Shown here one piece after another: positions 5,459-10,452 of a DNA stretch of 20,961 nucleotides. Each line of letters begins with the position of its first letter. Position 1 is the stretch's first letter. The notes under the pieces are model-generated. The model was given only the letters and a program-made list of their open reading frames with translations. It had not been told where the DNA came from and made no database searches. This DNA is from Microcaldota archaeon. Lineage in GTDB: Archaea; Micrarchaeota; Micrarchaeia; Norongarragalinales; UBA8480. The stretch is taken from contig JAHFHC010000015.1 in NCBI GenBank assembly GCA_023247085.1, positions 1 to 20,961 on the forward strand, in the 5' to 3' direction. The position numbers were made by a program, and so were the translations under genes.

Positions 5459-6214
5459 CTAAAGTGAATGCTCTTGCACTTGCCACTCTGCGGCTTCTTT
5501 ATCGTATTTGCACCGAAACATTTTCAACGCATTTGAGCCGCGTGCAGCAATTTTTGAACGTTGTTCTCTTGACAGTACTCTGTCTGCTTCAAGTAAATTG
5601 GTTATTCCTGCATGAAGGCTGCCTAGTCTTATTCCTATTTTTGTATGCCCAGTTTTTTCAGCAAGTGCCTTAACTTTATCGACAATTATTGCATTTCGAA
5701 CAAATACCATTGGATCTAATTTTCCATACGTTTCAGCTATAGCTCTAGATACTGTTCTATTACTAGCATCTCCAGGTTTTGCTAAATTCCGGCCTGCAAA
5801 TAAGGGGGCACCAGAGATTGAAATGCCAGTTACAGCGCCTGTTCCTAGTTTTAAAATATCTCTTCTAGTCATTCTTGATTTTTTAATAGCTTGACTAAAC
5901 ACCCCCACTGCTAACGCTGCTGCTGGCCCGCCGCGTAATAATGTAGTGACTATTCTTTCAATTGGCTTTTCTGCAACATCCCCAAACCAAAGTTCAGTGC
6001 CGCTTGCTTTAGCTCTTTCGATTATTTCACCAGTTGCTCCGCCCCAATCTAGTAAATGCATAGCAACTTCTTTAACATTATCTCCATGAGTTCCAGTTGT
6101 TTCTATAAATATAGCATGTAGTTTTTCAATTGGAAGTTCAACGCGTTCTTCTGCATGCGTATTAAGTTGAACTGAATACAGTCTACTTTTATTCCGAACA
6201 TTTATTATGCCCAT
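5459..6214 (-). CDS. TraB/PrgY-like protein with internal twin-arginine-type segment
   Basis: Protein of 251 residues that I assign tentatively to the TraB/PrgY (pheromone-shutdown, GumN/ChaN-like) fold. Residues 12-20 (LYSVQLNTH) match the family's opening strand and GTxH motif, with H20 as the motif His. IFIETTG (35-41) matches the strand ending in a conserved Glu. ELWFGDV (74-80) fits the later D/E-rich strand. RNAIIVDKVKALAE (173-186) and IRLGSLHAGITNLL (195-208) match the C-terminal helix and the G-x-x-H motif (H201). Between these halves, residues 113-140 hold SRMTRRDILKLGTGAVTG, which closely resembles a Tat signal peptide (RRxxLKLG followed by a weakly hydrophobic stretch) but is internal. 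The start codon directly follows the Pcc1-like stop codon with no gap, so the two genes are almost certainly co-transcribed. Confidence 0.5.
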   Translation of the reverse strand: MGIINVRNKSRLYSVQLNTHAEERVELPIEKLHAIFIETTGTHGDNVKEVAMHLLDWGGATGEIIERAKASGTELWFGDVAEKPIERIVTTLLRGGPAAALAVGVFSQAIKKSRMTRRDILKLGTGAVTGISISGAPLFAGRNLAKPGDASNRTVSRAIAETYGKLDPMVFVRNAIIVDKVKALAEKTGHTKIGIRLGSLHAGITNLLEADRVLSREQRSKIAARGSNALKMFRCKYDKEAAEWQVQEHSL

Positions 6215-7235: not shown

Positions 7236-7985
7236 TTATATTTTTTTGACTTTCTTCTTTAAAGCAGCCGCTTGTGCTAAGGCAGAATTAAAAAATGCTA
7301 TTTTATCTGGCTTCACTCTTGCACGGTCTTCTGGCCATAATTTCTTAAACCATTTCCTTACAACTTCTGCATCGATAAACACCCCGCGTCGTGTGGTTTT
7401 GCGTGAAGGACTATTGTAGCGTACCTGATCTAGAAAATAAGGTGCGTCTGGCTTGATTGAATCAGTTTCGTATTTTGCACGAACATGAGTTGTAAATAAT
7501 TGATCTGGAAACGCGGACAATGGTTTACTAATAAAAACTGCAATTGGGCGTTCCACACGCCAACCTAAACGTGCAGTTTCATGTAATAAGAACCCTTCTT
7601 CCAATGGCGAGGTATAATCTCGAGATTTTACAACTCTGCGCATGACGACCAAAGGTGCTTTTCTTTCACTAGATGTTATTTCAAATGGTCCAGAAGTGCG
7701 GTGAAAAGTTCTTCTACCTGTTGTTAAGCCGCGGTTAGTAGCGGTAATATCTTTTGCACTACTGTGTTCCATTGCACGATTTGCTGTATTTTCTCGATTC
7801 ATCATCTCAACTACGTCATGCACACTTACTTTCTTAGCATGTGGAAATAATACTAGGTGCCCGTGATTCGTCTTAGCAACAGTAAATCTACTTTCGCTAT
7901 GTTCAACTTCATGCACAGATTTAACTCGAATATTGTGGTGGTTTTGTTGATGAGCTTGTACCATTCGCCTGAAACTTTTTAGCAT
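7236..7985 (-). CDS. Hypothetical basic protein
   Basis: Protein of 249 residues, rich in Arg, Lys and His, with no signal peptide or membrane helix. The N terminus is His-rich (HQQNHHN, HEVEHSES, TNHGHLV). A central stretch, APLVVMRRVVKSRDYTSPLEEGFLLHETARLGWRVERPIAVF, has the spacing of the N-lobe of a kinase-like fold: strand with Lys, a Glu-containing helix, then G-x-x-V-x-x-P-I. No catalytic HxD loop or DFG-like motif follows, so a working kinase is not supported. The C terminus is Lys-rich (ALKKKVKKI). A TATA-like TTTTTTAAAAA lies about 25 bases before the ATG. I do not recognise the family; the length and position make it a likely real gene. Confidence 0.6.
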   Translation of the reverse strand: MLKSFRRMVQAHQQNHHNIRVKSVHEVEHSESRFTVAKTNHGHLVLFPHAKKVSVHDVVEMMNRENTANRAMEHSSAKDITATNRGLTTGRRTFHRTSGPFEITSSERKAPLVVMRRVVKSRDYTSPLEEGFLLHETARLGWRVERPIAVFISKPLSAFPDQLFTTHVRAKYETDSIKPDAPYFLDQVRYNSPSRKTTRRGVFIDAEVVRKWFKKLWPEDRARVKPDKIAFFNSALAQAAALKKKVKKI

Positions 7986-8015: not shown

Positions 8016-8091
8016 CAACCGGTTTTCTAATGTCCTTCATTTATTCAAGCGGGGCGCTAGCTATTAATAATAAAGAACGCCGGGGACGAGA

Positions 8092-8152
8092 TTTTCAAGC
8101 TCTTGCGGTTTTCTTTTCCGTAAGGCTTTTCTTTTTTTAAAAGAAAAGGTTT
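8092..8152 (-). other. Non-canonical T-loop intron (about 61 nt) of tRNA-Ser
   Basis: The two T-stem strands are separated by about 70 bases where 7 are expected. Removing 8152-8092 gives the standard T loop TTCGAAT, with the insertion at 59/60. In this register T54-T55-C56-G57 can pair with intron bases TGAA (8097-8094). That leaves three-base bulges A58-A59^A and A-A^T60, cut in the usual place. The inner helix is weak, so this is closer to a relaxed bulge-helix-loop. Because the flanks are similar, cutting after position 56, 57 or 58 would give the same or an equally standard loop. The interior holds a 10-bp hairpin, CTTTTCTTTT/AAAAGAAAAG (8148-8126). Confidence 0.75.
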
Positions 8153-8184
8153 TTCGAACTCGCAATCCCTTGCGGGAACTAGCT

Positions 8185-8246
8185 AACTAGTAAAAATGCG
8201 GTTTTAGAATTGACTGTTTTTGTGTGTGCAATTCGCCGTTTTTTAA
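8185..8246 (-). other. Canonical anticodon-loop intron (62 nt) of tRNA-Ser
   Basis: The intron lies between positions 37 and 38. A bulge-helix-bulge can be drawn. The 5' bulge is A36-G37^T and the 3' bulge is T-T^A38, each cut between its second and third base. The central helix pairs exon CTTG with intron CTAG (three pairs and one U-U mismatch). The inner helix is TAAAAA/TTTTTA. Further in, CGG/CCG and GAATTG/CAATTC extend the intron hairpin. This is the standard archaeal splicing-endonuclease target. Confidence 0.82.
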
Positions 8247-8397
8247 CTCAAGGCTAGCGCATTGCCGTTCTGCCACCCCGGCATTTTCGGCAAAAATAAT
8301 TAGGCGCCAATTGTTTATTATTGCTGTGCCAGCGGGTTTCATTGCCGCTTGGTTCAAGTTAGTTTTAATAACTCAGTGTGATTTATTTTTTATTCTC

Positions 8398-8784: not shown

Positions 8785-8795
8785 TTTTTTTTTTT
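8785..8795 (+). terminator. Oligo-T terminator for the winged-helix-like gene
   Basis: A run of eleven T residues starts 21 bases after the stop codon at 8761-8763. It overlaps the last bases of the convergent uS10 gene by two. Confidence 0.55.
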
Positions 8796-9099
8796 AGCTT
8801 AGAGTCATTTCAATGTGAACTGAATAAGGGAATCGCATTCTCATGACTTCACGGAGAACTCGGTCATCTGCATCTATTTCAATCAAGCGCTTATGAATGC
8901 GTAATTCCCACTTTTCGTAAGTGTCTGAACCATCCCCACAAGGGGTTTTACGAGTAGAGATCTTTAAGTGTTTAGTTGGCAAGGGAACTGGCCCTTTTAT
9001 GGCTACGCCTGCGCGTTTTGTTATTTCCCGAATCTGCGAGCATACGTCGTCAAGTTCAGGAACATTTTGACTTTCTAGTTTAATACGTGCTTTTCCCAT
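8794..9099 (-). CDS. rps10: Ribosomal protein uS10
   Basis: Small-subunit ribosomal protein, 101 residues, the usual archaeal length. Recognisable segments include KARIKLESQNVPELDDVC, the loop GPVPLPTKHLKISTRKTP that reaches into 16S rRNA, YEKWELRIHKRLIEI, and the C-terminal VHIEMTL strand. In archaea this gene commonly follows the elongation factor 1A gene, as here, with 75 bases between them. A TATA-like T/A stretch (minus strand, around 9122) lies about 25 bases before the ATG, so it may also have its own promoter. Confidence 0.96.
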   Translation of the reverse strand: MGKARIKLESQNVPELDDVCSQIREITKRAGVAIKGPVPLPTKHLKISTRKTPCGDGSDTYEKWELRIHKRLIEIDADDRVLREVMRMRFPYSVHIEMTLS

Positions 9100-9174: not shown

Positions 9175-10452
9175 TTAAGCGGTTGCTTTTCGTGGAACCA
9201 CTTCTAGAATGATTCCAGCTGCAACAGTTTGCCCCATGTCCCTCATGGCAAAACGGCCAAGAGCGGGGAAGTCGCTGTACTTCTCTGCACAAACTGGTTT
9301 AGTTGGTCGAATTTTAACAATTGCAACGTCTCCAGTTTTAATGAAATCGGGGTTCTTTTGCATTGTACCGCCGGTTTTTGGATCTTTCTTTTCAACTATT
9401 TCGCTAATTGTACACGCGATTTGAGCAGTGTGCAAGTGAAATACTGGAGTATAGTTCTTTCCAATTGCGGTTGGGTGGTTTAACACCACTATTTGCGCAG
9501 TGAATTCTTCAACTACCATTGGAGGTGACTTCGGGTCGCCGATTACGCTTCCGCGTTTAATTGCTTTTTTGTCAATGCCTTTAATTACGAATCCAACATT
9601 GTCTCCTGGAATTGCTTGAGTTAATTGTTGGTGGTGCATTTCAATGCTTTTTACTTCGCCTGAAAGCCCTTCTGGCATGACAATTATGTTCGTATTTGGT
9701 TTTAAGATTCCAGCTTCAACTCTGCCGACTGGAACTGTGCCTTGGCCAGTGATTGTAAAGACTTCTTGAATTGGCAATCGAAGTGGTTTGTCTGTTGGTT
9801 TTGGCGGGACAGTTAAGTTTTCAAAAGCTTCTAGTAAAGTTGGCCCCGAATACCACGCCATTTTGTCGCTTTTCTTGGCGATGTTGTCTCCGGTGTAAGC
9901 TGAGTAGGGTATGAATGGGATTGTGTCAACTTTGTACCCCATTGGCTTGAGTTTAGCAACGAGTGCTTGTTTAGTTTCCTCGTATTTTAAGCGGTCGAAG
10001 TTAACTGCGTCCATTTTGTTAATTGCAATAATGAATTGTTGTACTCCTAGCACTTTAAGCAAGAACGCGTGTTCAATTGTTTGTGCTTGTACTCCGTCTT
10101 TTGCAGAGCATACTAGCACAGCTGCATCTGCTTGTGATGCGCCGGTAATCATGTTTTTGACAAAGTCTTTGTGTCCGGGCGCGTCGATGATTGTAAAGTA
10201 GTATTTTTGTGTGTGGAAATCTTTGTGGGCGATGTCAATGGTAACTCCACGTTCACGTTCTTCTTTGAGTTGATCCATAGCAAAGGCGAATTCAAAAGTT
10301 GCTTTGCCGACTTTTGCTGCTTCTTCTTTTAACTTACGCAAGTCGTTTTCGCTTAGTGCGCCAGTATCGTATAAAATGCGTCCAACGGTTGTTGACTTTC
10401 CATGGTCAACGTGACCAGTAAAAATTAAGTTCAAGTGTGGTTTTTCTGCCAT
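9175..10452 (-). CDS. tuf: Elongation factor 1-alpha (aEF1A)
   Basis: GTPase that brings aminoacyl-tRNA to the ribosome, 425 residues, normal for archaea. The GTP-binding motifs are intact: P-loop GHVDHGKST (13-21), switch II DAPGH (90-94), NKMD (145-148) and the G5 segment YSAYTGDNI. Domains II (about 220-310, QEVFTITGQGTVPVGRVE) and III (about 315-425, ending GRFAMRDMGQTVAAGIILEV) are complete. Unlike most genes here, it has a strong Shine-Dalgarno sequence, AGGAGG, eight bases before the ATG. It also has a TATA box far upstream (10603-10594), which implies a leader of about 115 bases. uS10 follows. Confidence 0.97.
   Translation of the reverse strand: MAEKPHLNLIFTGHVDHGKSTTVGRILYDTGALSENDLRKLKEEAAKVGKATFEFAFAMDQLKEERERGVTIDIAHKDFHTQKYYFTIIDAPGHKDFVKNMITGASQADAAVLVCSAKDGVQAQTIEHAFLLKVLGVQQFIIAINKMDAVNFDRLKYEETKQALVAKLKPMGYKVDTIPFIPYSAYTGDNIAKKSDKMAWYSGPTLLEAFENLTVPPKPTDKPLRLPIQEVFTITGQGTVPVGRVEAGILKPNTNIIVMPEGLSGEVKSIEMHHQQLTQAIPGDNVGFVIKGIDKKAIKRGSVIGDPKSPPMVVEEFTAQIVVLNHPTAIGKNYTPVFHLHTAQIACTISEIVEKKDPKTGGTMQKNPDFIKTGDVAIVKIRPTKPVCAEKYSDFPALGRFAMRDMGQTVAAGIILEVVPRKATA

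Follow-up and report, generated by a model that had tools for sequence, protein, structure and literature searches.

The reading of a serine tRNA gene broken by two introns, one of them inside the T loop, on the minus strand of an archaeal contig raised the question of whether this locus encodes a functional tRNA and of where its second intron comes from. The window, i.e. the whole stretch of DNA that was analysed, comprises 20,961 nt of contig JAHFHC010000015.1 from a Microcaldota archaeon (GCA_023247085.1), and its source genome assembly, hereafter G000, measures 892,562 bp and is 92% complete. The tRNA precursor runs on the minus strand from position 8282 to position 8078 (205 nt) and contains three exons of 36, 32 and 14 nt (Table 1), so that removal of both introns leaves an 82-nt mature tRNA-Ser(UGA). 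As the first-pass annotation had proposed, this is a class II tRNA with a second intron in its T loop, and the pairing it had counted was recovered base by base: 7/7 in the acceptor stem (GCCGGGG/CCCCGGC), 5/5 in the anticodon stem (CTAGC/GCTAG) and 5/5 in the T stem (GCGAG/CTCGT), the latter with a single G-U. The variable arm reads CCC-GCAA-GGG, the discriminator position is G73, and ARAGORN calls the spliced 82-mer a tRNA-Ser(tga), in agreement with the serine identity assigned at first sight. The gene had also been expected to escape standard gene finders, and ARAGORN indeed reports 0 tRNAs in the unspliced window, where the Rfam search does not find a tRNA either. An intron-tolerant finder, recommended from the start and written for this analysis, gives the locus a score of 19.0 vs a maximum of 13.9 on 126 kb of Markov-shuffled window sequence; this score, together with the conservation of the tRNA beside uS10 in relatives, places the locus beyond chance. 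The EF-1alpha encoded in the window shares 82-86% identity with that of many further Micrarchaeota, in addition to the closest match given in Table 1. No phage match was obtained for the tRNA locus. Close to the tRNA lie two ORFs of ~250 aa (positions 7236-7985 and 5459-6214, both on the minus strand) that have no Pfam match.

Table 1. Coordinates of the tRNA-Ser(UGA) locus, of the core elements of intron 2 and of the neighbouring genes in the window.
Feature	Position	Strand	Description
tRNA-Ser(UGA) exon 3	8078..8091	-	tRNA positions 60-73
Intron 2	8092..8152	-	61 nt, T loop 59/60
R3	8109..8118	-	third purine strand GAAAAGAAAA, parallel complement of Y1
R2	8126..8135	-	purine strand AAAAGAAAAG, pairs with Y1
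Y1	8139..8148	-	pyrimidine strand CTTTTCTTTT, hairpin 1 of intron 2
tRNA-Ser(UGA) exon 2	8153..8184	-	tRNA positions 38-59, includes variable arm and TTCGAA
Intron 1	8185..8246	-	62 nt, canonical 37/38
tRNA-Ser(UGA) exon 1	8247..8282	-	tRNA positions 1-37, anticodon TGA; identical in L012/L106
uS10 gene	8794..9099	-	upstream syntenic neighbour, establishes tRNA orthology in relatives
EF-1alpha gene	9175..10452	-	98% identical to Ca. Micrarchaeota nzgw34

Each of the two introns displays the archaeal bulge-helix-bulge (BHB) arrangement, with 3-nt bulges at both junctions and a 4-bp helix between them. For intron 1, the outer helix CTAGC/GCTAG is followed by the bulge AG|T, the helix CTTG/CTAG (one U-U), the bulge TT|A and a six-pair inner helix TAAAAA/TTTTTA, while intron 2 combines the outer helix GCGAG/CTCGT, the bulge AA|A, the helix TTCG/TGAA, the bulge AA|T and a weak inner helix, an arrangement that is reproduced by the MFE fold of the T arm with the intron. 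Both are relaxed BHB motifs, intron 2 through this weak inner helix and intron 1 through the U-U mismatch in helix H. The T-loop junction was placed at 59/60 by the BHB rule and, because of the A runs found there, it could shift by up to 2 nt with the product unchanged. The class of splicing endonuclease, about which the first-pass annotation had asked, is epsilon2: the enzyme of this family is a single chain in which tRNA_int_endo matches twice, and the 387-aa EndA ORF of the relative G002 matches over its full length (E 6e-128) PDB 4fz2, which is the epsilon2-type endonuclease from ARMAN-2 (Ca. Micrarchaeum acidiphilum). The EndA of G000 is the same protein as the G002 copy, broken by an N stretch in the assembly; this short N run lies inside the endonuclease gene at about position 4440 of contig C26 (L182), and the gene is whole in G002. 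RtcB was also found in G000 (E 2e-172), and the genome accordingly holds both a splicing endonuclease and RtcB. The epsilon2 endonucleases are reported to have a broad specificity (PMC12397907, PMC4033280). Judging from these sequence features, the tRNA-Ser(UGA) precursor would be spliced by the epsilon2 endonuclease, which would excise the introns at 37/38 and 59/60, with RtcB sealing the ends.

The first-pass annotation had described a T-loop intron as rare, which holds for archaea in general and does not for this genome, where such introns are the norm: they are present in about 24 of the roughly 41 tRNA genes found in G000, mostly as members of one repeat family, in a census that covers targeted stretches of the genome, is incomplete and includes approximate hand-parsed counts. 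BLAST of the locus located the intron-2 region some 14 more times in G000, and these sites were parsed together with additional ones found by pattern. Identity between intron 2 and the intron regions of other G000 tRNAs reaches 86-92%, that is, near-identical introns are found in non-orthologous tRNA genes. Intron 2 is hence a repeat common to many tRNA genes, which had not been recognised initially. Just 11 tRNAs of G000 score above the cut-off of the Rfam tRNA model, and our automatic parser resolved 30 tRNA genes with 44 introns, including 16 at T loop 59/60 and ten D-arm calls, two or three of which (e.g. Tyr, Thr-UGU) are perhaps spurious; about eleven further tRNA genes were parsed by hand. 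Isoacceptors with a T-loop intron include those for Ala, Arg, Cys, Gln, Gly, Leu, Lys, initiator Met, Ser, Thr, Trp and Val. Both tRNA-Leu(CAG) (L217) and tRNA-Leu(UAG) (L213) appear to hold a pair of introns in the T arm, one at 53/54 and one at 59/60. The intron pair is almost the same in the two Leu genes, and another copy of the repeat lies immediately upstream of tRNA-Leu(CAG).

The repeat has a conserved core made of hairpin 1, in which Y1 pairs with R2, and of the third purine strand R3 (Table 1), whose portion AAAAGAAAA is the apical loop of hairpin 2 in the MFE fold of intron 2. The consensus can be written Y1 = C T(a) C T(b), R2 = A(b) G A(a) G and R3 = A(c) G A(d), with 7-21 nt between R2 and R3 (loop 2) and with outer pairing arms that vary in sequence among copies. 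The tract lengths covary, c being equal to a in 66 of 71 distinct elements vs a mean of 37.4 and a maximum of 48 after shuffled pairing (10,000 permutations). Among asymmetric elements the parallel rule fits 42/47 and a direct copy 0/47, and a scan of 301 genomes of the phylum for (5,3) hairpins returned ~77 sites with AAAAAGAAA vs 4 with AAAGAAAAA, all 4 of which also hold AAAAAGAAA, these elements being multi-copy and related and hence not independent events. A single genome contains several different (a,b) values, each with the matching (c,d), and third-strand matches can extend to 11-15 nt, e.g. CTTTTTCTTTTCTTTT with AAAAAGAAAAGAAAA in L230. We consequently rejected R3 as a direct (antiparallel) copy relative to hairpin 1, for which the 301 genomes offer no exclusive site. 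We also rejected the view that R3 simply pairs with a fourth strand, Y4, which is found in long composite introns only and which, in L096 and L170, follows its own hairpin as R3 follows its own.

As no antiparallel pairing yields c = a, the rule is that of a purine-motif triplex in which R3 is antiparallel to R2; A stands over A-T and G over G-C, as the motif requires, and the third strand runs antiparallel to the purine strand of the duplex. Judged from sequence, it is a real possibility, if short of a probable one, that the core forms a class II purine-motif intrastrand triplex. Formation of such triplexes is reported for single-stranded DNA but not for RNA, their loci are described as unstable, and no triplex signal was seen with double-stranded DNA or in in vivo footprinting (PMC4666352). 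Speaking against a triplex are the outer arms, which vary from copy to copy, and a loop 2 that exceeds the length seen in bacterial motifs. The differing arms, together with the location of R3 in an apical loop and the sense orientation of 50 of the 55 placed tRNA elements, would suit an RNA tertiary contact instead, formed in the pre-tRNA or in the excised intron by docking of the hairpin-2 loop along hairpin 1. We consider this contact rather unlikely: the rule is exactly the purine-motif one (R2's base, antiparallel to R2), which according to PMC4666352 does not arise in RNA, it is also followed by the inverted modules of L096 and L145, and similar elements exist in intergenic DNA of G000 (L206) and on bacterial or phage contigs. 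The sense bias itself would be expected in either case, since the need for splicing alone would enforce the orientation of elements placed in tRNA genes.

The position of the introns within the 3' half of the tRNA, the usual attachment site, and the number of genes affected could also suggest that T-loop introns are kept because breaking this half shields the host from integrating elements. Disrupted tRNA genes have been proposed to resist integration by such elements. This protective role is improbable, for it explains neither the third-strand rule, nor the existence of a repeat family, nor why copies also lie in 16S rRNA and elsewhere in tRNAs.

Comparison with relatives bears on both the function of the gene and the history of its intron. 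Wherever contigs permit, tRNA-Ser(UGA) adjoins uS10 in these genomes, and the T-loop intron of the orthologues measures 62 nt in G002/nzgw34, 57 nt in G021, 16 nt in G006, 20 nt in G004, 98 nt in L024 and 48 nt in L046. In the congener G001 (L107) the uS10 neighbour is kept and the T-loop site is empty, and many other orthologues are likewise devoid of a T-loop intron; such variation indicates repeated gain or loss. The tRNA-Ser of L024 carries near-identical introns at both 37/38 and 59/60. The idea that the repeat is required for T-loop splicing was rejected on the basis of the 16-nt and 20-nt introns of G006 and G004. A second intact tRNA-Ser(UGA), which the first-pass annotation had named as a sign of a pseudogene, is absent from the 92% complete G000 assembly, where the spliced sequence matches the three exons of this locus only, and the gene is neither redundant nor decayed. 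We conclude that the locus is very probably a functional tRNA-Ser(UGA) gene with two introns. A tRNA pseudogene disrupted by repeat insertions, which the failure of standard finders and the repeat-family DNA within the locus might evoke, is barely credible given the lack of another copy in G000, the intact stems, the orthologous exons that are conserved although the introns change, and an architecture that recurs in the majority of the remaining tRNA genes, not all of which could be inactive.

Base 57 covaries with the sixth intron base from the 3' end (Fisher p 2.8e-6) in a set of 87 candidate T-loop introns to which no BHB filter was applied and of which some are false: with G57 this base is C in 20/31 introns, and with A57 it is C in 8/56 and T in 33/56. 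The intron 3' end YGAA complements the T-loop TTCR, which provides the exon side of the BHB helix. With T54-T55-C56-R57 invariant in nearly every tRNA, an intron ending in YGAAAA should be spliceable in almost any T loop. The family has spread through tRNA genes of G000 and has also reached a 16S rRNA gene. The T loop would be chosen through pairing of T54-T55-C56-R57 with the YGAA of an incoming copy, and a triplex-type structure acting on the DNA could make the element prone to move and to be gained or lost. No mobilising enzyme was identified for the intron repeat. We tentatively propose that a DNA-structured triplex repeat behaves as a mobile BHB intron that would colonise Micrarchaeota tRNA and rRNA genes via the invariant T-loop sequence, its third strand being selected at the DNA level and its insertions rendered harmless by the relaxed epsilon2 endonuclease.

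Position 59/60 is among the intron positions reported in Thermoproteales and, to our knowledge, the spread of archaeal tRNA introns has been ascribed to transposition with no known mechanism. Intron 2 belongs to a BHB intron family that proliferates, mostly at one landing site, and whose core is of triplex type. The kind is known from Thermoproteales, for which large-scale tRNA intron transposition is described (Fujishima 2010, as cited in PMC4033280 and PMC4090602) and where P. calidifontis has 71 introns in 46 tRNAs (PMC8450103); the present case adds another phylum, the dominant landing site and the core. As in Thermoproteales, there are multiple noncanonical introns, with similar sequences across different tRNAs, from which spread is deduced. 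The Micrarchaeota introns differ by their phylum, by an epsilon2 endonuclease in place of the (alpha beta)2 enzyme, and by their concentration at T loop 59/60 with a conserved hairpin and third-strand core. ARMAN-1 and ARMAN-2 (Micrarchaeum) share the phylum, the enzyme type and the occurrence of several introns per tRNA (PMC4033280, PMC12397907), whereas a T-loop intron family or the repeat core was not found in reports on them. The core resembles the intrastrand triplex repeats known as PIT elements and TMECO (PMC4666352) in its class II order (Y-R-RH) and purine motif, in a third strand that mirrors the purine strand of the duplex, and in its multi-copy nature, inverted pairs and unstable loci. 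Unlike them, the Micrarchaeota repeat is A/T-rich, archaeal and located in introns of tRNA and rRNA genes, and its loop 2 of 7-21 nt, vs 1-6 nt in the search of PMC4666352, means that it is not classed within that catalogue, the main text of which mentions neither tRNA nor introns. Neither T-loop intron families in Micrarchaeota nor triplex motifs in tRNA introns are reported in the open-access literature that we searched. A lineage outside Thermoproteales presents the same explosion of introns, here with features visible at the molecular level: a defined landing site, the universal T-loop TTCR, and a conserved core in which the tract lengths covary in the way expected of a triplex. T-loop introns also explain the low tRNA recovery by standard finders in such genomes, and the missed tRNAs can bias tRNA counts and genome-quality estimates of DPANN MAGs.

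Several further observations concern the distribution of the repeat and of its relatives. IMG/VR loci (L279-L286), on bacterial or phage contigs, contain seemingly intergenic repeats of the form CTTTTTCTTT-loop-AAAGAAAAAG-(about 4-10 nt)-AAAAAGAAA, which are related to the known intrastrand triplex repeats, are rich in A/T and have a linker shorter than in the introns; no tRNA was found on the viral contigs with this pattern, which resembles bacterial/phage intergenic repeats. L063 (JAQTMD010000159.1), a contig assigned to the MAG of an Omnitrophota bacterium, encodes a Micrarchaeota-type EF-1alpha (85% identity) and is probably mis-binned. In G000, one element of the CCATGCC...GGCGTGGC subtype is found away from all tRNA genes, in intergenic DNA at a gene end (L206, G000:C16:13797-13845). 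Long composite T-loop introns with an inverted second module occur in L145 and L096 (G000:C28 and C29) as well as in L151 and L215; in L145, the T-loop intron of tRNA-Ala(UGC) holds an inverted copy of the L146 element. The same element of hairpin and third strand also lies within the 16S rRNA gene (L142, G000:C28:1300-1950, at ~C28:1592); it is presumably a BHB intron and could upset primers or 16S-based identification. Finally, the 5' part of the tRNA is doubled upstream of tRNA-Tyr (L007/L211) and tRNA-Thr(UGU) (L097/L151), the two copies flanking an intron-like element, and the same duplication is possible at L025 and L049 in other genomes; these arrangements look like the footprint of element insertion or of unequal exchange.
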